Source: Plantactinospora soyae (GTDB lineage: Bacteria; Actinomycetota; Actinomycetes; Mycobacteriales; Micromonosporaceae). From it: a stretch of 64,000 bases of DNA. Where the stretch lies: assembly GCF_014874095.1 (NCBI RefSeq), contig NZ_JADBEB010000001.1, positions 7,564,001-7,628,000 of the forward strand, read 5' to 3'. Below, one piece after another: positions 1 to 17,760 of the stretch. The notes beneath the pieces were generated by a model. That model ran no database searches. It saw only the letters and a program-made list of their open reading frames with translations, and was not told the DNA's origin. The translations under genes and the position numbers were made by a program. How positions within the stretch are numbered: the stretch's first letter is position 1; the number at the start of each line of letters is the position of its first letter.

Positions 1-169
1 TGGCGGCGGTGGCGGCGACCACGGCCGCCGTACCGGCCGCCATCCACCAGCCCGTACGCCGGGACAACCGCGCCGACTGTCTCGACGTGTCCTCCCAGTC
101 GGTGGAGGTGACCGGCTGCTCGGCCTGGTCCACGGCGTCGGGACCCTCCGCCGATACCTCTCGGCTCAC
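1..169 (-). CDS. N-terminus of a membrane-anchored protein, probably an efflux periplasmic adaptor (partial)
   Basis: Only the first 56 codons lie in the window; the rest runs off the left edge. The GTG start at 169 overlaps the TGA of the upstream lipoprotein gene (GTGA), so the two are translationally coupled. The visible part is a polar Asp/Glu/Ser-rich cytoplasmic stretch of about 40 residues, then an Arg-rich turn (LSRRTGWW) and the start of an Ala/Val-rich membrane helix. In actinomycetes a lipoprotein next to an OmpR/EnvZ pair is often followed by a peptidoglycan-binding HlyD-like adaptor and MacB-type ABC genes. The adaptor call rests on that context, not on a visible domain. Confidence 0.5.
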   Translation of the reverse strand, partial: MSREVSAEGPDAVDQAEQPVTSTDWEDTSRQSARLSRRTGWWMAAGTAAVVAATAA

Positions 170-684
170 CGTGGGGCGCCAGCGGGGCTGGAACCGTGGA
201 CGCCCGGCTTGCCCTTGCCCATCTGCGCCAGGCATTCGTTGGTGTCGCTCTTGAACTTGACCGGATCGCTGTTCACCCGGGGCGCGATCGCACGGTCCGG
301 CTGCGGGTCCGGTACGTCGTAGCCACGGGCCCGCAGGCACTGCGCCAGCTTGAGCGCGTCGTCCATGGCCTGTGGGTTCTCCTGCTTGAGGTCCTGCTGC
401 GGGGCGTGCTGCCGGCACGCCTCCTTGGCGGCCGTCATCTTCGCGTCGTCCTTGCCGCCATCGGTGTCCGCCCCGGCGGCGGGACTCTGGCCCGGGTCCG
501 GAACGTTGACGCCCTGTTCCCGCATGCATTGCGCCCAGCGCAGCATCCGGTCGTCGACACTCGTGGTGACGGGCGCCCCGGCCGGGCCGCCCCCGCTGTT
601 GTCGCTCCCGCCGCAGCCGGCAAGCACGAGCGTCGCCACGGACGCCAGCACGATCCCGGTCGTCGATGGAAGTCTCATCACCAT
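166..684 (-). CDS. Lipoprotein with a duplicated AQC-x-R-x-x-G-x-x-VPDP motif
   Basis: A 172-residue exported lipoprotein. The start is the ATG at 684, preceded by GAGAGG at a suitable distance. A hydrophobic signal segment ends in the lipobox LAGC, so Cys24 would be lipidated, and a Gly/Ser-rich tether follows. The mature part has two related blocks, WAQCMREQGVNVPDP and LAQCLRARGYDVPDP, each with one Cys, plus a third Cys-containing helix between them (EACRQHAP), suggesting disulfides outside the cell. The function of this family is unknown. It overlaps the next gene by 4 bp and is divergent from the two-component operon at 844, which may regulate it. Confidence 0.75.
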   Translation of the reverse strand: MVMRLPSTTGIVLASVATLVLAGCGGSDNSGGGPAGAPVTTSVDDRMLRWAQCMREQGVNVPDPGQSPAAGADTDGGKDDAKMTAAKEACRQHAPQQDLKQENPQAMDDALKLAQCLRARGYDVPDPQPDRAIAPRVNSDPVKFKSDTNECLAQMGKGKPGVHGSSPAGAPR

Positions 685-843
685 CACGTCCTCTCGTTCG
701 GGCGTTTCGGCCACCGTGGCCCGCCCAGACGCCAGGTGTAGCAAAGCGGACGTTGCGTCCCGGTTTCCTGCCGTGATAACTGGGACGAAACGTGCCGCGA
801 CATAGCATGACCACAGGTGTCATGGCGCATCGGAGGGTTTTTC

Positions 844-1497
844 ATGCGGGTACTGGTGGCCGAGGACGAACGGGTACTTGCCGACTATGTGGCCGAGGGC
901 CTGCGCCGCCGGTCGATGGCGGTCGACGTGGCCTACGACGGCATCGGTGCGCGGGATCGACTCGCGTACAACGACTACGACGTACTGGTGCTGGATCGCG
1001 ACCTGCCGGGGATACACGGCGACGACGTCTGCCGTGAACTGGTCCGCGAGGGCGCCCGAACCCGGATCCTGATGCTCACCGCCGCCGGGGCGGTGCGGGA
1101 TCGGGTGGAGGGGCTCGGGATCGGGGCCGACGACTACCTGGCCAAGCCGTTCGACTACGCGGAACTGGTGGCCCGGGTCCAGGCGCTGGGGCGCCGCGCC
1201 CAGCCGGCGGTACCGCCGGTGCTGCAACGGCAGGGAGTCATGCTCGACAGTGCCCGGATGCAGGCCTTTCGCGACGGGGTCTACCTGCCACTGTCCCGCA
1301 AGGAGTTCGCCGTCCTGGAGGTCCTGATGCGGGCGGGTGGAACGGTGGTCAGCACCAGCGAGCTGCTGGAACGCGCCTGGGACGAGAACGCGGACCCGTT
1401 CACCAGCGCGGTTCGGGTCACGATGAGCAAGTTGCGGGCGAAGCTGGGCGAGCCCAACGTCATCGAGACCGTCGCCGGCGCCGGCTATCGCATCTAG
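844..1497 (+). CDS. OmpR/PhoB-family response regulator
   Basis: A 217-residue transcription regulator. The ATG at 844 is preceded by GGAGG at about 833. The N-terminal receiver has the acidic pair E7-D8, the phospho-acceptor Asp51 in VLVLDRDLPG, a Thr in LMLTAAG, and the conserved Lys in DDYLAKPF. The C-terminal winged helix (about 125-217) has the usual LSRKEFAVLEVLM and VRVTMSKLRAKLG helices. The kinase gene starts 4 bp after its stop, so the pair forms one operon. Likely targets are the divergent lipoprotein/adaptor genes or the membrane genes just downstream; the sequence does not decide. Confidence 0.93.
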   Translation: MRVLVAEDERVLADYVAEGLRRRSMAVDVAYDGIGARDRLAYNDYDVLVLDRDLPGIHGDDVCRELVREGARTRILMLTAAGAVRDRVEGLGIGADDYLAKPFDYAELVARVQALGRRAQPAVPPVLQRQGVMLDSARMQAFRDGVYLPLSRKEFAVLEVLMRAGGTVVSTSELLERAWDENADPFTSAVRVTMSKLRAKLGEPNVIETVAGAGYRI

Positions 1498-1501
1498 CGC
1501 C

Positions 1502-2725
1502 ATGGCCAGACTCCTGCCGATCCTCCTGCGTCGCCCACGACCGACTGTCCGGGCACGCCTCGCCGCCCTGTACGGCGGGCTCTTCCTGGCCACCGGTACG
1601 ACGCTGGTGGCGATCGTGTACCTGCTGCTGCGCAAGCTCGTCTACGCCAAGCACCACCGCATGATGCTGTCGGAGGAGGCGAAGCGCAGCCTGGCGGCCG
1701 AGAAGACGCCGGGCAAGACGCCGTCCACGAGTGGCGCCGAGGCCCAGCTGAATGACCTTGCCCAGGCCACCGCGGACGTCCGCGACGAGATGCTACGCAA
1801 CCTGTTGATCGTCTCCGTGGTCTCACTGGCCGTGCTGGCGTTGCTGACGGTGCTGCTGAGCTGGTGGCTCGTCGGCCGGGCACTTCGGCCACTGCGCCGG
1901 ATCGTCGCGACCGCCCGCCGGCTGTCCGTGGAGAACCTCGACGAGCGGATCGCGCTCTCCGGTCCCGACGACGAACTGAAGGAACTCGCCGACACCTTCG
2001 ACGACATGCTGGCCAGGCTGGAGGACGCGTACGCCGGGCAGCGCCGGTTCGTCGCCAACGCGTCACACGAACTTCGCACGCCGCTGGCGATCCAGCGTGC
2101 CGCCATCCAGATCGGTCTCGCCGATCCCGCGCCGGAACCGATCGCCAAGGTCCGCGAGGAACTTCTCGTCGCCAACCGGCGCACCGAGCGGCTCATCGAG
2201 GGACTGCTCCTGCTCGCCCAGAGCGAACCCGAACTTACCCATCGGGAGCCGGTGGCTCTGGACCGGCTCGCGAGCGAGGTGGCCGAACGGCAGGCTGAGT
2301 ACGCGCGGGCGGCCGGTGTCCGGATCGACGTCGATGTCCAACCGACCGAGGTCGCCGGTGATCCGGTTCTGCTCGCCCCGTTGATCGAGAACCTGGTCCA
2401 GAACGCGGTGCGGTACAACCGGTCGGGCGGCAGCGTACGGATCAGCGTCAGTCCGTACGACGGCGTACGGGTCCGCAACACCGGCCCGGCCGTACCCGAG
2501 GACGAGATACCCGAGTTGTTCGAGCCGTTCCGTCGGGGCGGGCTGCGGCGGACCCGCTCCGGCGACGGGGCCGGACTCGGACTGTCGATCGTGCGCGCGA
2601 TCGCCAGGGCACACCACGGCACGGTGTCGGCTCGACCGAACCCGGGCGGCGGGCTGGAGGTCGAGGTACGGCTGCCGGTGTCGACGCCGGCCGCCGTCGA
2701 GTCGAAGGGAGTACTTCTTCGGTGA
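1502..2725 (+). CDS. Sensor histidine kinase (HAMP-HisKA-HATPase)
   Basis: A 407-residue membrane kinase and partner of the regulator at 844. It has a first membrane helix at about 20-45, a short extracellular loop of about 55 residues, a second helix at about 98-122, then a HAMP linker. The H-box is HELRTPLAIQ with phospho-acceptor His189. The N-box is ENLVQNAVRYN and the G-box GDGAGLGLSIV. The small loop suggests sensing in or near the membrane. The stop codon overlaps the GTG of the MauE-like gene (GTGA), which ties the two-component system to the redox pair behind it. Confidence 0.93.
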   Translation: MARLLPILLRRPRPTVRARLAALYGGLFLATGTTLVAIVYLLLRKLVYAKHHRMMLSEEAKRSLAAEKTPGKTPSTSGAEAQLNDLAQATADVRDEMLRNLLIVSVVSLAVLALLTVLLSWWLVGRALRPLRRIVATARRLSVENLDERIALSGPDDELKELADTFDDMLARLEDAYAGQRRFVANASHELRTPLAIQRAAIQIGLADPAPEPIAKVREELLVANRRTERLIEGLLLLAQSEPELTHREPVALDRLASEVAERQAEYARAAGVRIDVDVQPTEVAGDPVLLAPLIENLVQNAVRYNRSGGSVRISVSPYDGVRVRNTGPAVPEDEIPELFEPFRRGGLRRTRSGDGAGLGLSIVRAIARAHHGTVSARPNPGGGLEVEVRLPVSTPAAVESKGVLLR

Positions 2726-3303
2726 TCGAATTCGTCGTGGTCCTCGCGGCGGGCGCCCGGTTCGCGGTCGGGTTCACCCTGCTCGCGTCCGGTGCCGCCA
2801 AGGCACGTGATCCGGTGGGCTTCATCCGGGGCGTCCGCGACTACCGGCTGGTACCCGACCGGCTCGGACCGGTGGTCGCGGTCGGCGTGCTCTGCGCCGA
2901 ACTGGTGGTCGGGATGGCCCTGCTGGCCGGGATGATGCTGGCCTGGGCGGCAGCCGGAGCGGTGGCCCTGGGCCTGGTCTTCACGGCGGCGATAGCCGTC
3001 AACCTACGTCGTCGTCGACCCCTGCCGTGCTACTGCTTCGGGCCGGGCGAGTCCATCTCGGCGCGATCACTCGTCCGGGCCGCCGCTCTGGTCATCGCCG
3101 CCGCCGCCGTCCTGTCGGCCGGGTGGACCGGTGCCGATCTGACGGCACCGACGCTTCCCGCCACCCTGCTACAGGCCACGGTGGGGCTCGGCCTGTTGGC
3201 GATCATGAGCTGGCTGCTCGTCCTGCCCGAACTGCGGTCGCTGCGCGCGGCGCCCGGTCCGCTGGCCACCGCGGCAGCGTCGTCGTCCGAATCCCCTCGG
3301 TAG
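2722..3303 (+). CDS. MauE/DoxX-like redox-associated membrane protein
   Basis: A 193-residue integral membrane protein with about four helices. The first block (LLASGAAKARDPVGFIRGV followed by DYRLVP) is typical of MauE-type proteins, known from methylamine dehydrogenase maturation and from quinone-linked thiol oxidation systems. A Cys pair in PLPCYCFGPGE lies at a loop between helices, as in MauE relatives. It starts at a GTG inside the kinase stop codon and is followed 12 bp later by a thioredoxin-fold gene, the usual MauE-MauD pairing. I infer that the pair passes electrons or disulfides across the membrane, possibly to the two Cys of the peptide at 9109. Confidence 0.82.
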   Translation: MIEFVVVLAAGARFAVGFTLLASGAAKARDPVGFIRGVRDYRLVPDRLGPVVAVGVLCAELVVGMALLAGMMLAWAAAGAVALGLVFTAAIAVNLRRRRPLPCYCFGPGESISARSLVRAAALVIAAAAVLSAGWTGADLTAPTLPATLLQATVGLGLLAIMSWLLVLPELRSLRAAPGPLATAAASSSESPR

Positions 3304-3315
3304 GAGGAACCTGAG

Positions 3316-3894
3316 ATGCCGACCTCGACGCTCTTCTCAGTCAGCTACGGGGTGCTGTGGCTCATCGTGCTCGCGCAGACGTACGTACTGTTGAAGATCA
3401 TCCGGGGCCGCGGCATCTCCGTCGGTGCGGCCGGCGGCGGTGCGGACCGGCCGGCCGAGCCGCTGCCGGCCGGATCTCCCGCACCCGACTTCAAGGCACC
3501 GCAGTTGGGCCAGGCAGAGTTCCTCAACAGCCACCGGTTGCGGGGCAACCGGGTACTGCTGGCGTTCGTCGGCCCGGACTGCTTCGTCTGCGCGAGGTCG
3601 ACACCGGCGCTGCAAAAAATCTCCCACGTCACCGAGGCGAAGCTCATCCTCGTCTGCCTGGGGCCGGCCGACCGGTGTACCGACTTCGTCGCCCGCTATG
3701 CGCCAACCGCCGTCGCACTGCACGACGAGACCGGTGCGCTGGCCCAGCGGTTCCGCGCCTCGAAGACACCGGCCGCCGTACTGCTCGACGAGGCGTGGCG
3801 GATCCTCCAGTACGGCGCACCGGTCGACGCGGACGGCCAGTGGAAGTTCTCCACGCCGCCGAAGTCCACACCCGACCCTGTCGGTCAGCGTTGA
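3316..3894 (+). CDS. Membrane-anchored thioredoxin-fold protein (MauD/TlpA-like)
   Basis: A 192-residue protein with an N-terminal anchor (about 8-28) and an exported thioredoxin-like domain. The redox motif is Cys89-Phe-Val-Cys92 in FVGPDCFVCARS, and a cis-Pro-type TPAAVLLDE segment follows near 155. The ATG at 3316 has AGGAGG in front. It pairs with the MauE-like protein and would act on thiols at the outer face of the membrane. Its 3' end overlaps the convergent ABC transporter gene by 10 bp. Relatives reduce or oxidise Cys pairs in secreted enzymes; the substrate here is not known. Confidence 0.85.
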   Translation: MPTSTLFSVSYGVLWLIVLAQTYVLLKIIRGRGISVGAAGGGADRPAEPLPAGSPAPDFKAPQLGQAEFLNSHRLRGNRVLLAFVGPDCFVCARSTPALQKISHVTEAKLILVCLGPADRCTDFVARYAPTAVALHDETGALAQRFRASKTPAAVLLDEAWRILQYGAPVDADGQWKFSTPPKSTPDPVGQR

Positions 3895-5903
3895 CCCGCG
3901 GGCGCCTGCGCGTACGCCGCCGCCTGCATGGTGAACAGTTCGGCGTACTCGCCGTCGTGCCGCATCAGCTCCTCGTGCGTACCCTCCTCGACCAATTGAC
4001 CCCCGTCGAGCATCAGAATCCGGTCGGCTCGCCGGACCGTGGAGAAGCGGTGCGAGACGTAGACCGTCGTACGCCCCTCGGCCAGCTGCCCGAGCCGGTC
4101 GAACAGCTCGTGCTCGGCGCGGGCGTCGAGGGCCGATGTCGGTTCGTCGAGCAGCAGGACCGGTGTGTCCCGCATGAAGGCGCGGCTGAGAGCGACCTTC
4201 TGCCACTCCCCGCCGGAGAGTTCGACACCGCGCGCGAACCATTTGCCGAGCGGTGTGTCGAAGCCGTCCGGCAGATCGGCGAGCAGGTCGAGGGCGCCCG
4301 CCTTCCCGGCCGATGCCTCGATCCTGGCCCGGTCGTCCAGGTGCCGTACGTCGCCGAGCCCGATGTTCTCCGCGGCCGTGGCCTGGTACGCCACGAAGTC
4401 CTGCAGCATCACGCCGATGCTGCCCCGCAACTCGTCCGGATCCAGCTCACGCAGGTCGACCCCGTCGATGGTGATCCGCCCCGCGCTGGGGTCGTAGAGC
4501 CGGGCGACGAGCTTGACGACGGTCGACTTGCCCGCCCCGTTGCGGCCGACCAGGGCGACCGTCTGGCCCGACCGGATCTCGAAGCTCAGGTCGGTCAGTG
4601 CGGGGTGGTCCGAGCCCGGATAGCTGAAGCTGACGTTCTCGAACACGACATGGCCGCGCAGCGGGCTGGGCAGCGGGCGCGGATGCGCGGGCCGGGTCGC
4701 CACCGGGGTGGCCAGCAGGTGGTAGAGCGTGTCGAGGTAGAGGTTGTTCTCGTACACGCTGGTCAGGCCGCCGAACAGGCTCTGGACCGCCGTCTGCAGC
4801 GCGGTGGCGGCGGCGGTGTAGAGGATCAGGTCGCCGAGGGTGAGCCGACCGGACACCGCGCCCAGCGCCACGTACAGGAAGGTGAGCGAACCGGCCAGAA
4901 CCGCGACCATGCTCCACGCGCAGCCGATCAGATATCGGGCGGTGACCAGCCGACGCTGCCGGGCGTAGAAGATCCCGCCGAGGAGGCGGAATCGGTCCAC
5001 CAGGTACCCGCCCAAGCCGAACAGTTGCGTTTCCTTCGCGTACCTGTCCGTGGTGACCAGGCTCGACAGATACTCCATCCGCCGCCGGATCGGTGAGGCC
5101 CACAAGGTGACGAGAAATCCGCGTTGCCCGTAGCGGGCATCGGAAATGAACGCGGGAACCGGCGCCAGCAACGCGACGAGCGCGAGCCACGGACTCAGGC
5201 CGACAAGGAGTGCGACCATGCTGGCAAATGTCAGTGCGGCCTGACAGAGCCCGAATACGCTACCGACCATCGCCACCGGCCGGGTGGTCGCCTCCTGTTG
5301 AGCCTGGCGGAGCAGATCGTACGACTTCGAGCCTTCGAAGAATGCCAGGTCCAGTTTGCTGGCATGGGTCATCACCTTGAGCCGGATCGACAGTGTCATA
5401 CGCTCCTGGAGCAATTGCCGCGTCATTGCGTTGACCGCCGTGGCGAGCGAACTCGTCCCGAAGACGAGGAACTGGGCCAGGGTGAGCACGACGATCGCCT
5501 CGGTCCCGGTCAGTTCCGGCGAGCGCAGCGTCAGTCCTGGCAGTGACACGCTGAGTACCTGCAGGTCAGGAAGTTGATCGGCGCGGGCCTGAAGGGTCCG
5601 CACGACGGTGTCGACCAGCATCCGCACCAGGTACGCGGCGGCCGCCGGCACCAGACCCGCCACCACCGTGCCGGCGGCCAGACCGAGAGTCAGCCGCGGG
5701 CTGGCCTGCCAGACCAGCGCGAGTACTCGCGGCACCCCACGCAGCGTCCCGCCGATCGTGGCGCCGAGCCGACGCAGTCGGGAACGGATGTCGCGGCGAG
5801 CCGGCTGAGGTGGCGATTCGGGTGCGTCGGATTCGCCGGTGAAGCCGCTCCAGGGAGAAGCCGAGGGCTCGTCCTTGCGGATGAAAAACTGCATCGACTT
5901 CAT
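3885..5903 (-). CDS. ABC transporter with fused membrane and ATPase domains
   Basis: A 672-residue half-transporter: an N-terminal cytoplasmic tail of about 65 residues, six membrane helices (about 70-370), then the ATPase. Visible motifs are Walker A GRNGAGKST, signature LSGGEWQKVALSR, Walker B VLLLDEPTSALD and the switch His in VYVSHRFSTV. There is no N-terminal C39 peptidase domain, so it would export an already cut or uncut peptide. SD GTGGAGG precedes the ATG. It faces the S9 peptidase gene across 119 bp, a shared promoter region. Such MsbA/LanT-like exporters are common in RiPP loci; export of the small peptide at 9109 is an inference. Confidence 0.88.
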   Translation of the reverse strand: MKSMQFFIRKDEPSASPWSGFTGESDAPESPPQPARRDIRSRLRRLGATIGGTLRGVPRVLALVWQASPRLTLGLAAGTVVAGLVPAAAAYLVRMLVDTVVRTLQARADQLPDLQVLSVSLPGLTLRSPELTGTEAIVVLTLAQFLVFGTSSLATAVNAMTRQLLQERMTLSIRLKVMTHASKLDLAFFEGSKSYDLLRQAQQEATTRPVAMVGSVFGLCQAALTFASMVALLVGLSPWLALVALLAPVPAFISDARYGQRGFLVTLWASPIRRRMEYLSSLVTTDRYAKETQLFGLGGYLVDRFRLLGGIFYARQRRLVTARYLIGCAWSMVAVLAGSLTFLYVALGAVSGRLTLGDLILYTAAATALQTAVQSLFGGLTSVYENNLYLDTLYHLLATPVATRPAHPRPLPSPLRGHVVFENVSFSYPGSDHPALTDLSFEIRSGQTVALVGRNGAGKSTVVKLVARLYDPSAGRITIDGVDLRELDPDELRGSIGVMLQDFVAYQATAAENIGLGDVRHLDDRARIEASAGKAGALDLLADLPDGFDTPLGKWFARGVELSGGEWQKVALSRAFMRDTPVLLLDEPTSALDARAEHELFDRLGQLAEGRTTVYVSHRFSTVRRADRILMLDGGQLVEEGTHEELMRHDGEYAELFTMQAAAYAQAPAGQR

Positions 5904-6022
5904 GTTGCCTCCACTGTGGTGAGCGTCGTACGTCGATGTGCAGCATTCGCAAAAGCTGCCCGGACAGGAACTCCACCGGAGGGTCGCCGGACGTCTGGCG
6001 AGACGGTAATGTGAAAGTCACT

Positions 6023-7876
6023 ATGAAGCCTCCGGACCTCATTCCGCGTAGCGTCCTGTTCGCTAATCCCGCCCGACTCAGTCCGGCACTGTCGCCCTCC
6101 GGAAAACACATCGCCTATCTGGCGCCCGTCAACGGTGTACTCAACATCTGGGTGGGCGAATCCGATGGTGTCGACTACCGTCCGGTCACCGAGGACTCCG
6201 ACCGTGGCATCAACGCCTTCTTCTGGGCGCACGACGGGCGGCACCTCATGTACCTCCAGGACCGCAATGGCGACGAGAACATGCACCTCTACGCCGTCGA
6301 CATCGATTCGGGACAGGCCCGGGAACTCACCCCGTTCCCCGGGGTGAAGGCGGGTCTGGCCGGTCTCAGCCGGCGGGTCCCCGGGCACGTGCTCGTGACG
6401 ATGAATCGCCGCACCCGGCACCGCTACGACGTGTACCGGATCGAGATCGCCACCGGCGAACTCGTCCTGGTCGCGGAGAACGAAGGCTTCGCCGGCTGGC
6501 TGACCGACCGCGACCTGCGGGTCCGCGGCGCCCTGGTCTGGGACGGCGACGGTGCCCGGTTGATGGTCCGGGACGACGAGCGGACACCCTGGCGTCCCCT
6601 GCACGGGGTCGGGCTCGAAGACGCGATGAAGATGCGCCCCCTCGGCTTCACCGCGGACGGAGAGAGTGTGCTGCTGCTCTCCTCGGCGGATGCCAACGCG
6701 ATCCGGCTGCTGCGGCTGGGCCTCGCCGGCGAGGTCGAGGTGGTGTACGCCGACCCACGGCATGACGTGGTGAACGTGCACGTCCGGCCCGACACCGGCC
6801 AGCCGGACCTGGTCGTCGTCCGCCGCGAGCGTTCCCACCTGGAGGTGCTGGACCCGAGGGCCGCCGACGACGTCGCGCGGCTGCGGGACATCTGTCGTGG
6901 TGACGTGACACTGCTCGGCCGCGACGACACCGACCGGTGGTGGCTGACGCAGGACAACATCGACGACGGCCCCGCCGGCTACCACCTCTTCGACCGGACC
7001 AGCGGCAAGGCCCGTTTTCTCTTCAGCCACCAGCCGGAGTTGGAGCGGTACGAGCTGGCCCGGATGGAGCCGTTCTCGTTCCTCGCCCGGGACGGTCTGA
7101 CCATCCACGGCTATCTCACGTTTCCACCGGGGCACCTCCGTCGAGGACTGCCGACCGTGCTGACCGTGCACGGCGGCCCGTGGGCCAGGGACGTGTGGGG
7201 CTTCCGAGCCGAGCCGCAGTGGTTGGCGAACCGGGGCTACCTCTGTATCCAGGTCAACTATCGGGGCTCGACCGGGTACGGGAAGGACTTCACCGACGCT
7301 GGCGACCGGGAGTGGGGCGGGCGGATGCAGGACGACCTGACCGATGCCGTGCACTGGGCGGTCCAACGCGGCTACGCCGATCCGGACCGGGTCGCCATCT
7401 ACGGCGCCTCGTACGGCGGCTACGCGGCGCTGGCGGGCGCCGCTTTCACCCCGGAGCTGTTCCGGTGCGCGGTGTCCGCCGCCGGTCCATCGGATCTGCG
7501 TACCTTCATCGGCGCCGGCTCGTACGCCAGGGTCATCGCGGCGCAGATGCGTCGACGGGTCGGCGACCCGGACCTCGATGCTGACTTCCTCTGGCTGCGG
7601 TCGCCGCTGTCGAGGGTGGATGAGATCCGGATTCCTCTGCTGATCGCGCAGGGCGCCAACGATCCGCGGGTACGGCGCGAGCAGTCGGAGCAGCTCGTCG
7701 CGGCCCTGCGCGAAAAGGAAATCCCCCACCAGTACCTTCTCTTTCCGGACGAAGGTCATGCGCTGGTCAGGCCCCGTAACCGGCTCGCCTTCTACACGGC
7801 GGTCGAACGCTTTCTGGCCGAACACCTCGGTGGGCGCTGCGAAGCAACGCCCACCGAGGATGAAGGTCCGTCATGA
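6023..7876 (+). CDS. S9-family prolyl-oligopeptidase-type serine peptidase
   Basis: A 617-residue cytoplasmic peptidase with no signal peptide. The N-terminal half (to about 340) has blade-like repeats with S-P/D-G turns (LSPALSPSGKHIAYL, WAHDGRHLMYL), as in acylaminoacyl peptidases. The C-terminal alpha/beta-hydrolase carries Ser463 in GASYGG, Asp547 in GANDPRV and His579 in DEGHAL, a complete triad. The oxyanion region is VHGGPWARD. A GTG at 6011 is an alternative start; neither has a strong SD. These enzymes cut peptides of up to about 30 residues, often after Pro, so this one could trim or mature the neighbouring 50-residue peptide. Confidence 0.88.
   Translation: MKPPDLIPRSVLFANPARLSPALSPSGKHIAYLAPVNGVLNIWVGESDGVDYRPVTEDSDRGINAFFWAHDGRHLMYLQDRNGDENMHLYAVDIDSGQARELTPFPGVKAGLAGLSRRVPGHVLVTMNRRTRHRYDVYRIEIATGELVLVAENEGFAGWLTDRDLRVRGALVWDGDGARLMVRDDERTPWRPLHGVGLEDAMKMRPLGFTADGESVLLLSSADANAIRLLRLGLAGEVEVVYADPRHDVVNVHVRPDTGQPDLVVVRRERSHLEVLDPRAADDVARLRDICRGDVTLLGRDDTDRWWLTQDNIDDGPAGYHLFDRTSGKARFLFSHQPELERYELARMEPFSFLARDGLTIHGYLTFPPGHLRRGLPTVLTVHGGPWARDVWGFRAEPQWLANRGYLCIQVNYRGSTGYGKDFTDAGDREWGGRMQDDLTDAVHWAVQRGYADPDRVAIYGASYGGYAALAGAAFTPELFRCAVSAAGPSDLRTFIGAGSYARVIAAQMRRRVGDPDLDADFLWLRSPLSRVDEIRIPLLIAQGANDPRVRREQSEQLVAALREKEIPHQYLLFPDEGHALVRPRNRLAFYTAVERFLAEHLGGRCEATPTEDEGPS
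7825..7859. terminator. 12-bp inverted repeat inside the 3' end of the S9 peptidase gene
   Basis: CCTCGGTGGGCG (7825-7836) pairs perfectly with CGCCCACCGAGG (7848-7859) across an 11-nt loop. It is encoded by the last codons before the TGA at 7874 and lies at the convergence point with the oxygenase gene, whose stop shares the palindrome TCATGA. It could terminate transcription from both sides. There is no T-tract, as is common in actinomycetes. Confidence 0.55.
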
Positions 7877-9106
7877 CAGGGTGAGGAAACCCTCCCGGAC
7901 CAGCGTTCCGATGAGCACGAGCCGGCCGTGCTCATCGAGGCCGCCGGGGATGTCCTTGCCGACGAACTCTTCGGTCTCCGTGACGAAGTGCAGTTCCTCG
8001 GTCAGATCCGCGGGCAGGCGGACGGACTTGCCGTGGAAGTCCAGCCGCGCCTGACCGTCTTCAATGGTCAGCCGTGCCAGCAGCCCGGGCCGCTGCCGTA
8101 CTCGCGTCTCGAGGTCGAGCGACCGCAACGCCTCGATGTCGAGCAGGTGCCCCTGGAGCACGGGCTGGCGTTCCAGCCGTGCCCGGCGAGCCGCCTCGGC
8201 GACCATGTCCGCCGGCGAGGCGGTGGCATGGAGCAGTTCCAGCAGTTCCGACGCCCGACCACGGGCGGATTCCTGGAGACTTTCATCCGAGGCGAAGCCG
8301 AGCGGGAGGGCCTGCCGGAAGCGGTGGTCGTCCATCACCATCTTCTCGACGGCGTCCTTGATAACGGTCGCCCACAGGACCGGAAGCACCCCGATCGTCA
8401 CGTGCAGCGATGCCGTCTCCTCCGACGTCGCCGCATGCACGATTCCACGGGGCAGGTAGAGCATGTCGCCCGGGCGCAGGTCGAATTCCCGCACGGGCGT
8501 TCCGTGATCTGCCGCGGAGGCGCCGTGTACGTGTTCGTGCACGGGCAGTTGGATCGGTGAGTCGTACAGGCACCAGTGCTTGGTGCCGTACACCTGTATC
8601 ACGAACACATCGTGCGTGTCGAAATGTGGTTTCAGCCCCTGCGCGTGGCCGCCGGGTGTCAGGTAGACATTTGTCTGGAAGCCCGCGCTGAGTTCTGCGG
8701 CGAGCGACTGACAGAGGTCACGGAGCGGCTTCCAACGGTCCTGCACGAACAACAGGTTCAGGGTGGCGCCTTGTCGATAGCGGTCGTACAGCACCTCCAG
8801 CCCGTTCATCAGGTTTCCCGACCCGGCGGAGGCGAGTTCGGAGATCGGGATCTCCTTGCCGTTGTCGAGGACGCGCAGGTCGGAGCCACGGGGTCGCGAG
8901 GTCGACAGGATGTGGTCGACATCTGCCAGAGTGAACAGGTCCCGGTAATGGTCTGGGTCCGCACGTTGGATGACCAGCGGCTGCTTCTCCCAGTAATCGG
9001 TCGCGAAGGTGGCGGGCTCGACGGGGTGAATCAGTCGGGAGAGGTTGAAAAGAGGCTGCGTACGGGACGCAGCCTCTTTCAGACCTCCTGGCGAGGCCTC
9101 GTCCAT
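7871..9106 (-). CDS. JmjC/cupin_4-family 2-oxoglutarate Fe(II) oxygenase, candidate RiPP hydroxylase
   Basis: A 411-residue protein of the bacterial ribosomal-oxygenase type (YcfD/RoxA-like). The metal site is His161-Phe-Asp163 (LKPHFDTHDVFVIQ) with distal His224 (GIVHAAT). A Tyr/Thr-rich strand precedes it (TNVYLTPGGHAQG) and KHWCLYD follows. The C-terminal region (about 270-411) fits the dimer and winged-helix part of the family. Known relatives hydroxylate Arg or His side chains on proteins. The ATG lies 2 bp after the stop of a 50-residue His/Asp-rich peptide gene, so both are co-translated and the peptide is the obvious substrate candidate. The exact modification is not predictable from sequence. 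Confidence 0.85.
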   Translation of the reverse strand: MDEASPGGLKEAASRTQPLFNLSRLIHPVEPATFATDYWEKQPLVIQRADPDHYRDLFTLADVDHILSTSRPRGSDLRVLDNGKEIPISELASAGSGNLMNGLEVLYDRYRQGATLNLLFVQDRWKPLRDLCQSLAAELSAGFQTNVYLTPGGHAQGLKPHFDTHDVFVIQVYGTKHWCLYDSPIQLPVHEHVHGASAADHGTPVREFDLRPGDMLYLPRGIVHAATSEETASLHVTIGVLPVLWATVIKDAVEKMVMDDHRFRQALPLGFASDESLQESARGRASELLELLHATASPADMVAEAARRARLERQPVLQGHLLDIEALRSLDLETRVRQRPGLLARLTIEDGQARLDFHGKSVRLPADLTEELHFVTETEEFVGKDIPGGLDEHGRLVLIGTLVREGFLTLS

Positions 9107-9108
9107 CG

Positions 9109-9261
9109 TCAGTGATCGCAGCAGTCGGTCGGGTCGGTGTCGTGACCGATGTGCGCCGGGTCCGAGGGGTCGTGGTCGTAGTGCATCGCGCCCGGCTTGG
9201 TGACCTCCGCCCTGACGACCTCGACGTCTTCGAGGCGTAGGGTCTTCTGCGTTTCCGGCAT
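9109..9261 (-). CDS. Candidate RiPP precursor peptide, 50 residues, His/Asp-rich core ending in Cys-Cys
   Basis: A short gene with a clear SD (GGAGGA, 9 nt before the ATG at 9261). Residues 1-24 form a charged leader (TLRLEDVEVVRAEV at 7-20) with no His. Residues 26-50 contain 7 Asp, 5 His, 3 Pro and 2 Cys and no Lys, Arg or Glu. The motif H-x-x-H-D occurs at 27-31 and again at 37-41, and the peptide ends DCCDH. Pro23 is a possible prolyl-oligopeptidase cut site. The split into a leader and a unique core, with an oxygenase gene 2 bp downstream, is typical of a precursor. I know no named RiPP class with this core. Confidence 0.75.
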   Translation of the reverse strand: MPETQKTLRLEDVEVVRAEVTKPGAMHYDHDPSDPAHIGHDTDPTDCCDH

Positions 9262-9281
9262 GTCCGGTCCTCCTCCGTGTA

Positions 9282-9306
9282 AGTGGCGTCCGGCAGCGAC
9301 GCCACT
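9282..9306 (-). promoter_or_regulatory. 9-bp perfect hairpin in the leader of the precursor gene
   Basis: AGTGGCGTC (9282-9290) pairs with GACGCCACT (9298-9306) around a 7-nt loop. It ends 5 nt upstream of the SD of the small peptide gene. There is no T-run, so it may act as an mRNA stabiliser, a processing site between the LuxR-type gene and the peptide gene, or a translation control element. The role is inferred. Confidence 0.45.
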
Positions 9307-9398
9307 GTTCTTCCAGACATCTAGAAACTACTGAGTAAGGAGTAGGCCGTCTTCAATGCAGTGATGGATTTCCGCGATCAACGTTTGTGGAAGATCAC

Positions 9399-10103
9399 TC
9401 ACTGGCCGCCATCAGCGATCGGGGTACACCCACAGCCCGAGGAGCGGAACATGCATTCGTGGCGCCGGACGAGACCATGCTGATAGGCGAAGACGACGGC
9501 CTGGACCCGGTCCCGCAATCCGAGCTTGGTCAGCAGATGGTGCACGTGTGAACGCACCGTAGCCGCAGAGACGCAGAGAATGCCGGCGATCTCCGCGTTC
9601 GACCAGCCCTGGGCGAGCAGGTCCAGCACACGGCTCTCCCGCTTGCTCAGCCGACGGACCTCCGGGGGAACCTCGGCGACCGCCGGCGGGCCCTTCGTCG
9701 CCCAGTCCAGGACGGCCCGGGTGGTGGCCGGCGTGAGGACCGCATCACCGGCCGCCACGGTCCGCACCACCCGAAGTACGTCCTCAGGAGGGCTGTCCTT
9801 GCGCACCTCGCCGCGTGCCCCGACCCGGATGGCCCCCAGCACGAGGCTCGCCTCGTCGAGTCCGGTCAGGAGGATGACTTTGACAAAGGAACCAAGGTCC
9901 TGGATCGCCGAGGACATCTGGGGCATCTTCGGTTGGATCCCCAGCAGCGCGATGTCGGGCAAGGTACGGCGAGCCAGGACGAGCGCCTCCTGGGCGTCCT
10001 TCGCTTCGCCGACGATCACCATGTCGGCCTCTGGCTCAAGGATCGCCCGTGCACCCGCTCGAACGAAGGTCTGATCATCGCAAATGAGCACACGGATCCT
10101 CAC
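9399..10103 (-). CDS. LuxR/NarL-family regulator with a degenerate receiver domain
   Basis: A 234-residue regulator, here started at the GTG at 10103 (VRIRVLICDDQ); an ATG at 10130 is an alternative. The receiver keeps the acidic pair in ICDDQ and the Lys in EVRKDSP. The phospho-acceptor position, where NarL relatives have LMDIRMP, reads LLGIQPKMP, so Asp is replaced by Gly55. The C-terminal LuxR helix-turn-helix is intact (LSKRESRVLDLLAQGWSN, then SAATVRSHVHHLLTKLG). No kinase is adjacent. Such atypical receivers in antibiotic loci respond to ligands or act constitutively. Its 3' end lies 137 bp before the peptide gene, so it probably controls this locus. Confidence 0.82.
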   Translation of the reverse strand: MRIRVLICDDQTFVRAGARAILEPEADMVIVGEAKDAQEALVLARRTLPDIALLGIQPKMPQMSSAIQDLGSFVKVILLTGLDEASLVLGAIRVGARGEVRKDSPPEDVLRVVRTVAAGDAVLTPATTRAVLDWATKGPPAVAEVPPEVRRLSKRESRVLDLLAQGWSNAEIAGILCVSAATVRSHVHHLLTKLGLRDRVQAVVFAYQHGLVRRHECMFRSSGCGCTPIADGGQ

Positions 10104-10484
10104 CGCCCCGTACCCCCGGTTTGCTCGCATCACGGAACGAATGACTCGGGAGAACGCTTGCTGACCTTGGCAAGCTGAACACGAATCTCCCACACCGTAT
10201 GGGTATTAGCAAATGCCAATTCTTCAGCAGATCGTTAACAACGCCCTCTTTGCGACAAATCCGAACTGTGATGAATTACAGGTACGGAATAGCGGCCGCT
10301 AATGGGCGATCGATAGCCTGCCGAGCCCGGCGCAGCGGGCTGGCGCCGACCTACCCGCTTATCTGGTCGGCGCCCTCGGCGTCGGCGCGACCACGCACGG
10401 CGTGGCACTACGTCCGCATCAACACCAACAGGTGGTCCCAGAACCTTACACACGCCGTCGGGGGCCGGCGCGAGGACGGAGGTG
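10104..10484. other. Intergenic region upstream of the LuxR-type regulator
   Basis: No gene is seen in these 381 bp. The middle part (about 10200-10300) is richer in A/T than its surroundings and includes stretches such as TTAACAACGCCC and GATGAATTACAGG, so it probably holds the promoter of the leftward regulator gene. I could not fix -35 and -10 boxes with confidence. The rest is the 3' flank of the repeat protein at 10485. Confidence 0.4.
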
Positions 10485-11177
10485 TCAGCCTGCGGCGAGG
10501 CGGGCGTTGACGGCGGCACCGGTGAGCGTGCTGCCGACGCCGTCGACGAAGCCGCCCGACGTGCAGTGCAGGGTCACCCCGTATCCGCCCGAGACGGTGT
10601 ACGTGCTCCGGCCGTCGCAGGTGTTGCCGGTGGCGGCACGCAGCAGGACGAGTTGCCGGGCCTCCTCGGCCGCGTCGGTCAGGGTACTGCCGAAGCCGAC
10701 GATGAAACCGCCGCCGGAGCAGTGGATGGTCACGGCGTACCCACCGGTCGTGGTGCTGGTGGACCGGCCGTCGCAGGTGTTGCCGGTCCGGCCGCGCGTA
10801 TCGGCGAGGAGCCGGGCGTTCTCGGCGGCGTCGGTGAGGATACTGCCGAAGCCGACGATGAAACCGCCGCCGGAGCAGTGGATGGTCACGGCGTACCCGC
10901 CGGTCGTGGTGCTGGTGGACCGGCCGTCGCAGCTGTTGCCGTAGTTGACGTACAGCTGGTTGAGCAGCAGCGCGTTGGTGTTCGCGGCGGTGAGCGTGCT
11001 GCCATAGCCGTCGATGAAGCCGGGGCCGGAGCAGTAGATGGTCACGTAGTACCCGCCCCTGGCAGTTCCCGAGGAGCGGGTGTCGCAGGCGGCGGCGGAG
11101 GCGGGCGCGGCGATGAAGGCCAGGCCCGTCAGGGTCAGCAGCAGGGCGGTCGCGGTGGCTCGTAGGGCGCGGGTCAT
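10485..11177 (-). CDS. Secreted protein of four 52-residue Cys-containing repeats
   Basis: A 230-residue exported protein. The signal peptide is MTRALRATATALLLTLTG with an APASAAA cleavage region near residue 29. The mature chain is four tandem units starting at Cys31, Cys83, Cys135 and Cys187; the last is shortened to 44 residues. Each unit has two Cys 18 residues apart in the pattern CDGRSTxTxxGGYxVTxHC, then GGFIVGFGSxLTDAAxNAR. One disulfide per repeat is likely. I do not recognise the family. It is leftward like the LuxR gene but separated by 381 bp, so it is probably not part of that operon. Confidence 0.75.
   Translation of the reverse strand: MTRALRATATALLLTLTGLAFIAAPASAAACDTRSSGTARGGYYVTIYCSGPGFIDGYGSTLTAANTNALLLNQLYVNYGNSCDGRSTSTTTGGYAVTIHCSGGGFIVGFGSILTDAAENARLLADTRGRTGNTCDGRSTSTTTGGYAVTIHCSGGGFIVGFGSTLTDAAEEARQLVLLRAATGNTCDGRSTYTVSGGYGVTLHCTSGGFVDGVGSTLTGAAVNARLAAG
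10685..10932. repeat. Near-identical 92-bp direct repeats within the four-repeat secreted protein gene
   Basis: Bases 10685-10776 and 10841-10932 match at 91 of 92 positions; the single difference is A at 10743 against G at 10899. The offset is 156 bp, exactly one 52-codon unit. The flanking unit sequences are far more diverged, which points to recent duplication or gene conversion between units 2 and 3. Confidence 0.85.
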
Positions 11178-11417
11178 GGCTCTCCCTCTGCGGGCGGGGC
11201 GACCCGGTCACGGCCGGCCATCCGCTCGGTGTCGGCCGCGCGGCGCCGCGGCCCGGTCACGGTCAGCAAACCCCATTCATCTCGCTTTGGCCAGACATCG
11301 CCATCGATACGATCTCAGGGAGTGGCCAGGCCGGGGCTCACCACTTCGGCTGCCACCTCGGCGGCCGGATCAACCGCGACGGCCGCCGTCGGATCTCGGA
11401 TTGGGATAGTGGCCGCT

Positions 11418-14854: not shown

Positions 14855-17116
14855 TCAGACGCGCGAGGTGGGGAAACGTTCCCACGACCGGTGTCCGGCC
14901 ATCAGCTGCTGCAGGTCGCCGAAGACCTCGGCTCCGGAGTCGCCGGTGACGACCCCGGGCGTACCGGTCACGTCCGCCCGCCGGAGCACGTTGCCGCCGA
15001 CGCCCCACCCGCCGATCGCCTTCGCGTGCCGCCAGCACTCCTCGATCAGGAGCAGGACGCGCGGATCCACGCTCAGCGAATCGGCCGAGGCCGCCCTGCC
15101 GTCGCGGGCCGGCAGGGCGTCCGGTGCCGGTGCCGGCGCTCCGGCCACCAGGACGGCGTCGAACTCGACCGACCGCGCGGTGGCGAAGGTCCGCTGCACC
15201 GGCATGCCGGCGACCGTCCCGCCGTGCGGGCCGATCAGCAGCGGCACCATGCCGGCGGCGAACACCGCTTCGCGGAGCTCGCTGACGCCGTCGAGGTCGC
15301 CGTCGGGGTCGATGACGATGCCGACGGTCCGGCCGTCGGTCGGCCACCTCTGGCCGAGTTGCGACAGCGCGGCGCTGGGAGTGACGTCGGACAGCGGAGT
15401 CGTCGGCTCCGGTGCGGGCAGCCCCAGGCCGTTGGCGACCTGCGTGCACAGCACCGGGTCGATGTTGGCCAGGCACTGGAGTTGTCGTTCCTTGATCGCC
15501 TGGTGGTAGCACTTGCCGAGTTCGAAGGCATAGGAACGGATGATGTGTTCCCGCTCCACCGGGGACATGCTCAGCCAGAAGAGCCGGACCTGGCTGAAGT
15601 GATCGGCGAACGAGACCGGGTTCGCCCGTACCTTGGGCGCCTCGGCGACCCGTACCGGCACGTCGAGAAAGGCGTTTTCGTCGTCGCCGGCCCGGAAGGG
15701 GTTGCCGCCGTCGAGCGAGTTCGGCCGGTACGGCGCGACGCCCGCGTGCACGGCCTGCTGGTGGAAGCCGTCGCGGAGCATGTCGTTGACCGGGGCATGC
15801 GGGCGGTTGACCGGGATCTGCGAGAAGTTCGGCCCGCCGAGCCGGGTGAGTTGCGTGTCGACGTACGAGAAGAGCCGGCCCTGCAACAGCGGATCGTTCG
15901 TGACGTCGATTCCCGGCGGCAGGTGCCCGACGTGGAACGCGACCTGCTCGGTCTCGGCGAAGAAGTTGGTCGGCGTCCGGTTGAGGGTCAGCCTTCCCAC
16001 CCGCTGTACCGGGGCGAGTTCCTCCGGCACGATCTTCGTCGGGTCGAGCAGATCGATGCCGGCGAAGGTCTCCTCGGGGGTGTCCGGAAAGATCTGGATG
16101 CCGAGCTCCCATTCGGGAAACGCACCGGCCTCGATCGCGTCGTACAGGTCCCGGCGGTGGAAGTCCGGGTCCATCCCACCCAGTAGCTGAGCCTCCTCCC
16201 AGGTCAGCGAATGCACGCCCAGTTTGGGCTTCCAGTGGAACTTGACCAACACGGTCTCCCCGGCGTCGTTGACCAGCCGGAAGGTGTGTACACCGAAGCC
16301 CTCCATCATCCGGAACGAGCGCGGGATGCCCCGGTCGGACATGTTCCACATGGTGTGGTGCTGCGCCTCGGTGTGCAGGGAGACGAAATCCCAGAAGGTG
16401 TCGTGCGCGCTCTGCGCCTGCGGAATCTCGCGGTCGGGGTGCGGCTTCCCGGCGTGGATGATGTCGGGGAACTTGATCGCGTCCTGGATGAAGAAGACCG
16501 GCATGTTGTTGCCGACGAGGTCGAACGTGCCCTCGTCGGTATAGAACTTCGTCGCGAAGCCACGGGTGTCGCGGACGGTGTCCGCCGATCCCCGCGAGCC
16601 GAGCACCGTGGAGAACCGGACGAAGACGTCCGTCTTCCTGCCCTTTTTCAGGAAGCCGGCGCTCGTGATCGCTTCGGCGGTGCCGTAGCTGATGAACTCG
16701 CCGTGGGCTCCGGCACCACGGGCGTGCACCACCCGCTCGGGGATGCGTTCGTGATCGAAGTGGGTGATCTTCTCGCGCAGGTGGTGGTCCTGGAGCAGGA
16801 CCGGACCACGGCGCCCCGCCTTGAGCGAGTGGTCGGTGTCCCGCAGCCGCGCGCCCTGCGACGTCGTCAGGTAGGCGCCCTGCTGGCCCATGCTGGCGGC
16901 GGGCGCGCCGGTCGGGGCGCCGGTGGGTGTGCGGGTGTCGGGAGCCCCCTGGTCCCGCTTCGGCGGCAGCGGCTCCTGCGGAACCGTCGGCTCCGGCACC
17001 GGCGGCGGGGCACTCCCCGGCGCGCCGGGCAGTTCCGTCGCCGGGCCGTCGGTCAGAGTCTCCGCGGCCGTCTCCACGACGTCCTTGACTTTCCTGGCGG
17101 GCTTGCTGGCATCCAT
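14855..17116 (-). CDS. katE: Large-subunit catalase, HPII (KatE) type with C-terminal DJ-1-like domain
   Basis: A 753-residue heme catalase that splits hydrogen peroxide; its length equals that of E. coli HPII. An N-terminal Pro/Ala-rich extension (1-75) precedes the core. Catalytic His131 lies in ERVVHARGAGAHGEF, the Asn is in VGNNMPVFF, and the proximal heme Tyr is in GRLFSYVDTQLTRLGG. Residues about 590-753 form the DJ-1/flavodoxin-like domain (VGIVIDPDGDLDGVSEL) found in large catalases. GGAGGAC precedes the ATG at 17116. It is monocistronic, and such enzymes usually belong to stationary-phase or osmotic stress responses. Confidence 0.95.
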   Translation of the reverse strand: MDASKPARKVKDVVETAAETLTDGPATELPGAPGSAPPPVPEPTVPQEPLPPKRDQGAPDTRTPTGAPTGAPAASMGQQGAYLTTSQGARLRDTDHSLKAGRRGPVLLQDHHLREKITHFDHERIPERVVHARGAGAHGEFISYGTAEAITSAGFLKKGRKTDVFVRFSTVLGSRGSADTVRDTRGFATKFYTDEGTFDLVGNNMPVFFIQDAIKFPDIIHAGKPHPDREIPQAQSAHDTFWDFVSLHTEAQHHTMWNMSDRGIPRSFRMMEGFGVHTFRLVNDAGETVLVKFHWKPKLGVHSLTWEEAQLLGGMDPDFHRRDLYDAIEAGAFPEWELGIQIFPDTPEETFAGIDLLDPTKIVPEELAPVQRVGRLTLNRTPTNFFAETEQVAFHVGHLPPGIDVTNDPLLQGRLFSYVDTQLTRLGGPNFSQIPVNRPHAPVNDMLRDGFHQQAVHAGVAPYRPNSLDGGNPFRAGDDENAFLDVPVRVAEAPKVRANPVSFADHFSQVRLFWLSMSPVEREHIIRSYAFELGKCYHQAIKERQLQCLANIDPVLCTQVANGLGLPAPEPTTPLSDVTPSAALSQLGQRWPTDGRTVGIVIDPDGDLDGVSELREAVFAAGMVPLLIGPHGGTVAGMPVQRTFATARSVEFDAVLVAGAPAPAPDALPARDGRAASADSLSVDPRVLLLIEECWRHAKAIGGWGVGGNVLRRADVTGTPGVVTGDSGAEVFGDLQQLMAGHRSWERFPTSRV

Positions 17117-17570
17117 CTGGGCGGGTCCTCCGTTGGGCGACTGGGGGGTGCCCTGAAGGCGGTACCCTCGGCTGAACAGGCGAAACACGCCGATCTCCGG
17201 TGCCGCGCCGGTACCACGCCGCACCGGGCGCTCCGGCGCCGGCCTCCTGTTCAGCGGTGGCCGGGTCGGTCAGACCTGCGGTGGGCGGGGACCGCCGACG
17301 CACGTCCGTCAGCGCCCAACCGAAGAATGCCACCTCCAGCACGGCGATGATGCCGAAAAGGACGATTCCCGCAATCTCTACCACCATCCTCGTCATCCGT
17401 CGCACCTCCGGCTGCTCGGCGACAGCCGTCCCGGCCTCCGCCCGGCCGGTACGGCTGACCGACGTTCACGATCCCGGATCGAGGAGCCGACCGACGCCCT
17501 CGAGATGGGGCCAGGAGGGCATCGATCGTGCCCTCGCTATACTTCCTACGCGCCCCACGGGGCGCGGCCC
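17117..17570. other. Divergent promoter region between katE and the SAH riboswitch
   Basis: No gene that I can support. On the minus strand a frame from 17405 begins with a good membrane-helix sequence ([19 protein letters not shown]) but stays open out of frame through the whole catalase gene, so it cannot be called. On the plus strand TATACT at 17538-17543 is a candidate -10 box for the SAH-riboswitch transcript; no clear -35 box is seen. A GC-rich hairpin (GCGCCCC/GGGGCGC) follows at about 17551-17566. Confidence 0.45.
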
Positions 17571-17640
17571 GGATCGAGAGGCGCTGCGACGGATCTCATC
17601 CGCCACGCTCGATCTGCGGCCTGACGTAAGGGCGCCTCCG
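17571..17640 (+). ncRNA. S-adenosylhomocysteine (SAH) riboswitch aptamer upstream of ahcY
   Basis: The segment shows the known SAH-aptamer signature GAGGCGCTGC, later GCCACGCTCG and then AAGGGCGCC. P1 pairs GATCGAG (17572-17578) with CTCGATC (17608-17614). P2 is capped by CGGAT-CTC-ATCCG. The pseudoknot pairs GAGGCGC (17578-17584) with GCGCCTC (17632-17638). SAH riboswitches are known to turn on SAH hydrolase genes when SAH builds up, and the gene behind it is ahcY, which fits. The pairings were traced by eye, not by a covariance model. Confidence 0.85.
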
Positions 17641-17658
17641 TGCAGGAGGTGCCCTTTT
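17630..17658 (+). terminator. Intrinsic terminator acting as the riboswitch expression platform
   Basis: GGGCGCCTCC (17630-17639) pairs with GGAGGTGCCC (17645-17654; one G-U pair) over GTGCA and is followed by TTTT. Its left arm contains the same GCGCCTC used by the aptamer pseudoknot, so ligand binding and terminator formation exclude each other. This predicts read-through into ahcY when SAH is high. Confidence 0.82.
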
Positions 17659-17760
17659 CGGCATCTTCTGCCGCGCTGCGGATCACAACCGCCGCTGCGC
17701 CGTACCGGTCGGACCTCGTCCGACCGACCTCCATGCACCGCGGAGTACGGAAGAGGAACC

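Follow-up and report, generated by a model that had tools for sequence, protein, structure and literature searches.

In this study, we examined a gene cluster at the left end of a 64,000-nt stretch of the Plantactinospora soyae genome (assembly GCF_014874095.1, contig NZ_JADBEB010000001.1, positions 7,564,001 to 7,628,000), here called the window, within which all coordinates below are counted. The genome carrying it is a single contig of 9,715,930 bases. The cluster, in which a gene for an Asp-rich 50-residue peptide stands just before a gene for a JmjC oxygenase, is a real, conserved system resembling those that make ribosomally synthesized and post-translationally modified peptides (RiPPs). 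This statement is carried by a precursor family that co-occurs with the oxygenase, by a conserved gene set, and by conserved metal-site residues. As a whole, the locus is best explained as a RiPP-like system whose oxygenase beta-hydroxylates aspartates of the peptide core, a reading to which we give a probability of about two-thirds.

The 50-residue frame (9109..9261, minus strand; translation MPETQKTLRLEDVEVVRAEVTKPGAMHYDHDPSDPAHIGHDTDPTDCCDH) is a real gene. As stated in the preliminary description of this DNA, it has a Shine-Dalgarno sequence (GGAGGAGG upstream of its ATG) and ends (TGA) two bases, CG, before the ATG of the oxygenase gene; its GC content at third codon positions (GC3) is 0.90. 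Peptides of seven other loci align with it over almost their full length. They share the leader (S/T)L..(D/E/A)(D/E)(I/V).V, represented in the window by TLRLEDVEV (residues 7-15, 9217..9243, minus strand), which the alignments and a motif scan show to be conserved and which we presume to be a leader or recognition element. The presumed core (residues 26-50, 9112..9186, minus strand), whose border with the leader is likewise placed tentatively from the alignment, contains two DxDP(S/T)D units at a spacing of 12 residues. In five of the seven aligned peptides the core consists of two 12-residue units, for example FVIADNDPSDPV / LVIADNDPSDPVL, and the window units DHDPSDP and DTDPTDC stand in register with them. 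The window core also contains CC, a Tyr, and five His, and is rich in Asp, His, and Cys. Across five homologue pairs, the ratio of nonsynonymous to synonymous differences (pN/pS) was 0.14, 0.18, 0.18, 0.33 (a pair with just four differences), and 0.45. As expected of a RiPP, a short precursor with a conserved N-terminal part and a variable core lies beside a modifying-type enzyme.

A profile of seven homologues (A4), from which the window peptide was excluded, was run on nine genomes. In the 9.7-Mb genome of the window (G000), its single match at E<=10 was the window peptide (E 1.0e-5). It recovered the known precursors of the G601, L042, and L048 genomes, themselves members of the profile, with E 3.0e-23 to 1.6e-25; two additional matches reached E 0.09 and 0.48 only. 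Nothing was matched in four genomes whose loci are of type B (see below) or unassigned. The precursor models of Pfam and NCBIfam matched neither the window peptide (P0001) nor ten homologues. Of twenty scans covering ten distant relatives, seven gave matches, all under cut-off (E 0.013-0.092), the best being that of L075 to NF050125 (E 0.013), a model of an MNIO-class RiPP peptide.

The oxygenase (7871..9106, minus strand, 411 residues) is, by its predicted model, a JmjC enzyme of the NO66/MINA53 fold. Its Pfam match is JmjC_2 (PF08007, cupin_4/ROX-type; E 4.8e-28), and the NCBIfam scan gave nothing for it at E<=0.1. The intact HxD...H site claimed for it in the preliminary description was borne out, as H161, D163, and H224 of this facial triad are invariant over 40 aligned homologues. 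In the AlphaFold2 model (mean predicted local distance difference test score 87, predicted template-modelling (TM) score 0.83), the best Foldseek match was human NO66 (E 7.0e-28, TM 0.66, root-mean-square deviation (rmsd) 6.3), followed by MINA53, YcfD, and Bacillus subtilis YxbC. A profile search of sequences in the Protein Data Bank (PDB) gave NO66 (E 3.5e-53), MINA53 (3.9e-53), and YxbC (5.6e-27), one YxbC entry bearing the title 'putative asparaginyl hydroxylase'. The C-terminus of the model, where ROX enzymes have a winged-helix-like domain, shows a compact a-bbbb-a-(b)-a-b arrangement; the alignment to NO66 at rmsd 6.3 covered 446 columns of the whole protein rather than this domain alone. 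The fold of a leader-binding RiPP recognition element (RRE, bbb-aaa) was considered for the oxygenase at the level of predicted secondary structure.

The pairing of peptide and oxygenase is well supported. A search with the oxygenase gave 79 loci (numbered with L), the top-scoring ones among at least 575 relatives, and we treat as orthologues 21 loci outside the window that are 43-54% identical, 16 of them from this search (L042-L056 and L083) and five from others. A neighborhood comparison of this kind had been put forward in the preliminary description as a check, and a short peptide indeed recurs within ~300 bp upstream of the oxygenase in 15/21 loci, namely 12 of the 16 together with L040, L143, and L147. 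Another locus has the peptide at a distance, one has a partial peptide, and four are without. The precursors of L044, L048, L051, and L056 were found by reading all frames and not by the Shine-Dalgarno-filtered scan of open reading frames. L074 (Jiangella, 38% identity), with a 91-residue frame ending in VTDPDPTDAAWHPA, was excluded from the count. The orthologues are patchily distributed: one of the seven genomes of the genus has one, the window's own (E<=1e-62), as do 4/341 genomes of another family and 6/392 Streptomyces genomes (both E<=1e-75). Separately, L055 (Actinomadura rupiterrae) holds three oxygenase copies within 10 kb (8765-9919, 10001-11227, and 16936-18156), the first two in tandem and with no peptide recognized next to them.

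The precursor also travels with a larger gene set. Loci whose cores are of the (D/N)xDP type are here termed type A; where the core is Asp/Asn-rich in another way or was not recognized, the locus is termed type B. In all nine type-A loci other than that of the window (L040, L042, L043, L048, L051, L052, L083, L143, and L147), the precursor is accompanied by the oxygenase, an S9 peptidase, an ABC exporter, a sensor kinase, a response regulator, a lipoprotein, and MacA-, MacB-, and FtsX-like proteins, L143 and L147 having turned up after the set had been defined. The peptidase, regulator, lipoprotein, MacA, and FtsX were matched in none of the ten type-B loci and none of seven paralogue loci, which share the oxygenase only. 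Type-B loci gave a weak kinase match in 1/10, a weak MacB match in 4/10, and an ABC protein of more distant relationship (30-34% identity) in 9/10, the contig of L054 ending early. When 37 oxygenases were placed in a maximum-likelihood tree, type B formed a clade (100/98), as did the Micromonosporaceae paralogues (100/100), and the labels need four changes, the minimum possible and a value that none of 200 shuffles reached. One type-A locus, L147, lies on the Streptomyces clavuligerus plasmid pSCL4, where the set is complete and the peptide (WP_009999493.1) reads MDDKKTSLEPDEIEVIPPVSTPDFVIADNDPSDPPIAIADPDPFDPVI. The pSCL4 record annotates the set independently as a hypothetical protein, a cupin domain-containing protein, an S9 family peptidase, an ABC transporter, a sensor kinase, a response regulator, another hypothetical protein, a peptidoglycan-binding protein, an ABC ATPase, and a permease.

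In the window, Pfam and NCBIfam scans took in the locus proteins, that is P0001-P0007, the regulator, and the kinase. The S9-family serine peptidase (5936..7876, plus strand, with alternative starts at 6011 or 6023; Peptidase_S9, E 1.4e-52), a presumed leader protease, carries GASYGG from residue 490, GANDPR at 573, and DEGHAL at 605, motifs on which, as in the family generally, the catalytic triad would lie, in line with the full triad described before. Among solved structures, that of an amino acyl peptidase (5l8s, E 8e-48) is closest to it in sequence, and the lasso isopeptidase AtxE2 is only distantly related (E 1e-12). The ABC exporter (3885..5903, minus strand) joins a membrane part, matched by ABC_membrane under its cut-off, to an ATPase (ABC_tran, E 4.1e-30), and at E<=0.1 Pfam found no C39 peptidase domain in it, as had been noted before. 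A protease and an exporter, which would act on the peptide, are both in the cluster, as in the nine other type-A loci. The earlier observation that no lanthipeptide cyclase, radical SAM, ATP-grasp, or YcaO enzyme is present was upheld for the scanned proteins, among which no such class-defining enzyme of lanthipeptide, radical SAM, YcaO, or ATP-grasp type was matched.

The limits first drawn for the locus, 2722..10103, were too narrow on the left, since the remaining conserved genes lie there in all nine type-A loci: the sensor histidine kinase (1502..2725, plus strand; Pfam and NCBIfam), an OmpR/VanR-type response regulator (817..1497, plus strand; best NCBIfam model vanR-O, under its cut-off), a lipoprotein (166..744, minus strand) with a LAGC lipobox, CMREQGVNVPDP and CLRARGYDVPDP, whose start codon is uncertain and whose matches across type-A loci are weak (37-72 bits), and the N-terminus of a MacA-like protein (about 1..169, minus strand). 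The last gene continues past the window edge and is followed there (L121) by genes for a MacB-like ATPase and an FtsX-like permease. The RiPP locus envisaged in the preliminary description thus stands as to precursor, oxygenase, S9 peptidase, and ABC exporter, found together in 9/9 type-A loci, and fails as to two other supposed parts. The NarL/LuxR-type response regulator (9399..10193, minus strand; Pfam) is present as described, but it was matched in 0/9 type-A loci and was rejected as a part of the system; a generic match occurs in 3/10 type-B loci, and pSCL4 has a helix-turn-helix protein nearby in its place. The MauE-family membrane protein (2722..3303, plus strand; Pfam E 1.8e-25) and the membrane-anchored AhpC/TSA-type, thioredoxin/MauD-like protein with one CFVC (3316..3894, plus strand; Pfam and NCBIfam) also exist as a pair. 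They were matched in 1/9 type-A loci, L040, whose core has Cys like that of the window, and are accessory rather than core. Two neighbors stand apart from these genes: a 230-residue secreted-looking protein (10485-11177, minus strand) with about four Cys-containing repeats (CDGRSTSTTTGGYAVTIHCSGGGFIVGFGSTLTDAAE-like) and no Pfam match at E<=0.1, and, beyond the left edge of the window and adjoining the MacAB-like genes, a 2343-residue open frame (L121 17-7048) that by eye resembles part of a nonribosomal peptide synthetase.

For the pathway, we infer the following scheme. The locus would make a RiPP-like peptide from the 50-residue precursor, TLRLEDVEV serving as the N-terminal recognition element and the C-terminal core carrying the Asp-Pro units. 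The Fe(II)/2-oxoglutarate-dependent JmjC/ROX-type oxygenase would bind the N-terminal element and oxidize the core, most likely by Asp beta-hydroxylation; the S9 peptidase would then trim the product and the ABC exporter secrete it. The kinase, regulator, lipoprotein, and MacAB-like module may sense and expel the product or protect the producer, and the MauE/thioredoxin pair may handle the Cys residues, which the window core has, unlike most of its relatives (Cys is absent from 7/10 type-A precursors: L042, L083, L048, L051, L052, L143, and L147).

Asp-rich peptides also accompany more distant oxygenases. Elsewhere in the genome of the window lies another JmjC_2 gene (L037 9463-11148, about 6753463-6755148 of genome C1), 35% identical to the first and preceded by a 101-residue peptide of Asp/Gly repeats, MRLDDDDIRTTGGGG...(GPADGGATPGQ.DGGADG)n. 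Matches to the window oxygenase at E<=1e-20 occur in 170/250 genomes of the family, and among the 28 best-scoring of the Micromonosporaceae paralogue loci collected from these (L005-L032) a similar peptide lies upstream in 26, L008 lacking one and L029 being at a contig end. In L031, counted among the 26, the repeat array upstream of 1501 shifts frame part way as recorded. A motif written from actinobacterial precursors, [ST]L..[DEAN][DEQ][IV].[VT], was scanned in the 79 loci, counting occurrences with a start codon within 600 bp upstream of the oxygenase. It occurs in 14/19 actinobacterial loci (1.23 versus 0.0095 per kb elsewhere), which are mostly its source loci and include the broken L050. 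Outside Actinomycetota, the motif, in short SL..DD(I/V).(V/T), occurs in 12/60 loci, from Rokubacteria, Chloroflexota, Acidobacteriota, Pseudomonadota, Planctomycetota, and Bacteroidota, at 0.337 versus a background of 0.0062 per kb (~54-fold). As some non-actinobacterial precursors had been seen by eye beforehand, this test was not blind, and related loci in it are not independent. After most of the 12 motifs there are Asp-rich stretches, for instance DADGTDGTDGE, DPDKKPA, or DPDDDDEGGPDDK, and in several of these peptides a twin-arginine-like or lipobox-like stretch (by eye) comes after the motif. By eye also, L063 (962-1291), L066 (9600-9992), and L068 (9507-9863) have the motif, a twin-arginine-like RR(S/V)(F/L)L, and then DPDKK or DPDDDDE-type repeats, an order that suggests modification before export by the twin-arginine translocation (Tat) system. 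Upstream of 33 motif-less loci we read nothing uniform. Peptides upstream of the Saprospiraceae and Flavobacteriaceae oxygenases at L081 (6401-6760), L084 (9421-9786), and L114 (about 9121-9468) carry ELTDEQLEQV(A/S)GG instead of the motif, leaders that look NHLP-like.

The oxygenase probably modifies the Asp-rich peptide, and the composition of the cores suggests most likely by beta-hydroxylating core aspartates. We tabulated 33 cores, four of them from Micromonosporaceae representatives, taking everything after the motif as core; 34 had been assembled by hand, and L058 could not be parsed. Asp is the sole residue present in all 33, and in 32 it precedes a Pro or Gly; both counts favor Asp beta-hydroxylation. 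His is absent from 18 cores, Tyr from 21, Cys from 25, Asn from 8, and Arg from 6. JmjC enzymes of the FIH type can beta-hydroxylate Asp. As for the His/Asp-rich character first ascribed to the precursor, the Asp part holds, its Asp-Pro units being conserved, and the His part does not, as His is found neither in the cores of the other seven tabulated type-A precursors nor in L143 and L147. His was accordingly rejected as the general target.

Several points tell against this reading. Pro, Thr, and Ala are each absent from just one of the 33 cores, so that Asp is favored and not proven. The PDB titles describe NO66 and MINA53 as His hydroxylases and YcfD as an Arg hydroxylase, and none of NO66, MINA53, YcfD, and BipG is known to us to act on Asp. 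BipG, a JmjC enzyme of a RiPP pathway, is reported in PMC12707348 to hydroxylate ornithine. Among the orthologues, L050 has a leader-like piece only, which runs into the oxygenase in another frame; the 600 bp read upstream in L053, L054, and L055 hold no precursor, nor does L144 have one close upstream; and in L145 the peptide is ~2 kb away and the oxygenase is split over two frames. The type-A oxygenases group together in the tree with weak support (36/32). L043 has Cys in its core, yet no MauE/thioredoxin match in 19 kb. Beyond Actinomycetota, 48/60 loci lack the motif, and the pairing is therefore not universal.

It is also conceivable, with a rather low probability, that the oxygenase oxidizes the precursor otherwise, by introducing a cross-link (for example Cys-Tyr), by desaturating it, or by hydroxylating its His, Pro, or Asn residues. 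A RiPP 2-oxoglutarate enzyme linking Cys and Tyr is mentioned in PMC12636437, both residues occur in the cores of L043 and L040 as in the window, which adds five His, and Pro hydroxylation is kept in play by the near-constant presence of Pro. However, the cores of L042, L083, L048, L051, and L052, loci with the same gene set, have no Tyr, Cys, or His. As Tyr and Cys are both missing there, the chemistry common to these loci cannot be a Cys-Tyr link, which was rejected as a general one. That the enzyme is an ordinary ribosomal oxygenase with the role of YcfD or NO66, next to an accidental small frame, seems very improbable: fold and profile do match NO66, MINA53, and YcfD, but the conserved precursor family, the purifying selection on it, the motif enrichment, and the patchy orthologues all speak otherwise.

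Another proposal concerns the role of the product and is compatible with Asp hydroxylation. The peptide may be a genuine substrate whose product, secreted or held at the cell surface, binds metal or Ca2+ and is not an antibiotic, with the transporters serving metal or envelope stress. We consider this possible, at odds somewhat below even. The placement of Asp before Pro or Gly, the abundance of Asp, His, and Cys in the window core, and the twin-arginine-like or lipobox-like stretches of some relatives in other phyla (by eye) are in its favor. No metal uptake or metal regulator gene was matched among the scanned locus proteins, however, and a product active on the envelope would suit the VanRS-like pair and MacAB-like genes no less well.

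Returning to Asp hydroxylation, one could extend it well beyond this locus. We suggest, tentatively and with more doubt than confidence, that JmjC_2 oxygenases in at least seven bacterial phyla are dedicated to short Asp-rich repeat peptides with an N-terminal SL..DD(I/V).(V/T) recognition motif, and that a large share of the proteins named 'cupin domain-containing' or 'ribosomal oxygenase' would be peptide aspartate hydroxylases. Acidic lipopeptide antibiotics have Ca2+-binding beta-hydroxy-Asp motifs, and the products of these enzymes would be the ribosomal counterparts of such motifs, some exported by ABC transporters and some by Tat or as lipoproteins. The related pairs in other bacteria point to a little-described kind of modified peptide. 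In the record examined, a bacterial PF08007 oxygenase was annotated just as 'cupin domain-containing'; a set of such enzymes now gains testable substrates, and the motif gives those who mine genomes for RiPPs a new handle that finds precursors starting from the oxygenase. As the gene set is complete on pSCL4 of S. clavuligerus, product and function are directly testable, and because the enzyme is related in fold to human NO66 and MINA53, the system is also relevant to how such enzymes choose their substrates.

That PF08007/cupin-4 enzymes occur in RiPP contexts is already known from two reports. Four cluster families in sponge metagenomes pair a cupin-4 enzyme with an NHLP domain (PMC9426513), and JmjC PF08007 proteins with RRE-like folds, RRE-JmjC fusions, and bacterial homologues in RiPP-like contexts have been presented (PMC12710340, Bregman 2025). 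The window system likewise places such an enzyme in a RiPP-like context, whereas the accessible text of both describes no Asp-repeat precursor, SL..DDI motif, or S9/kinase/MacAB set. Nor did we find a description of this precursor family, its motif, or its gene set in the open PubMed Central literature, which, with the Pfam and NCBIfam scans, agrees with the earlier remark that no named family fits. Similar to the biphenomycin JmjC hydroxylase BipG and the cupin-like PbsQ, the window oxygenase would be a JmjC/cupin-fold enzyme acting on a RiPP precursor. BipG and PbsQ, however, are reported to have ornithine as their target, and their pathways include MNIO, arginase, and radical SAM enzymes; Pfam and NCBIfam matched none of these three among the scanned locus proteins.

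With NO66, MINA53, and YcfD, the window oxygenase shares the JmjC_2 domain, the best fold matches, and the invariant HxD...H; it is 22-24% identical to NO66 at an rmsd of about 6.3, and differs from all three in that its gene lies behind a short Asp-rich peptide gene in a transporter/protease cluster and is patchily distributed. Class III lanthipeptide loci have an S9 leader protease and a separate ABC exporter. The window locus resembles them in its S9 prolyl-oligopeptidase-like presumed leader protease and separate ABC exporter, and departs from them in having no synthetase among the scanned proteins and in the precursors without Cys in 7/10 type-A loci. The calcium-dependent acidic lipopeptides of the malacidin/daptomycin type are non-ribosomal and have DxD-type units, with beta-hydroxy-Asp in some. 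By analogy only, these acidic DxD-type units are also those of the window core.

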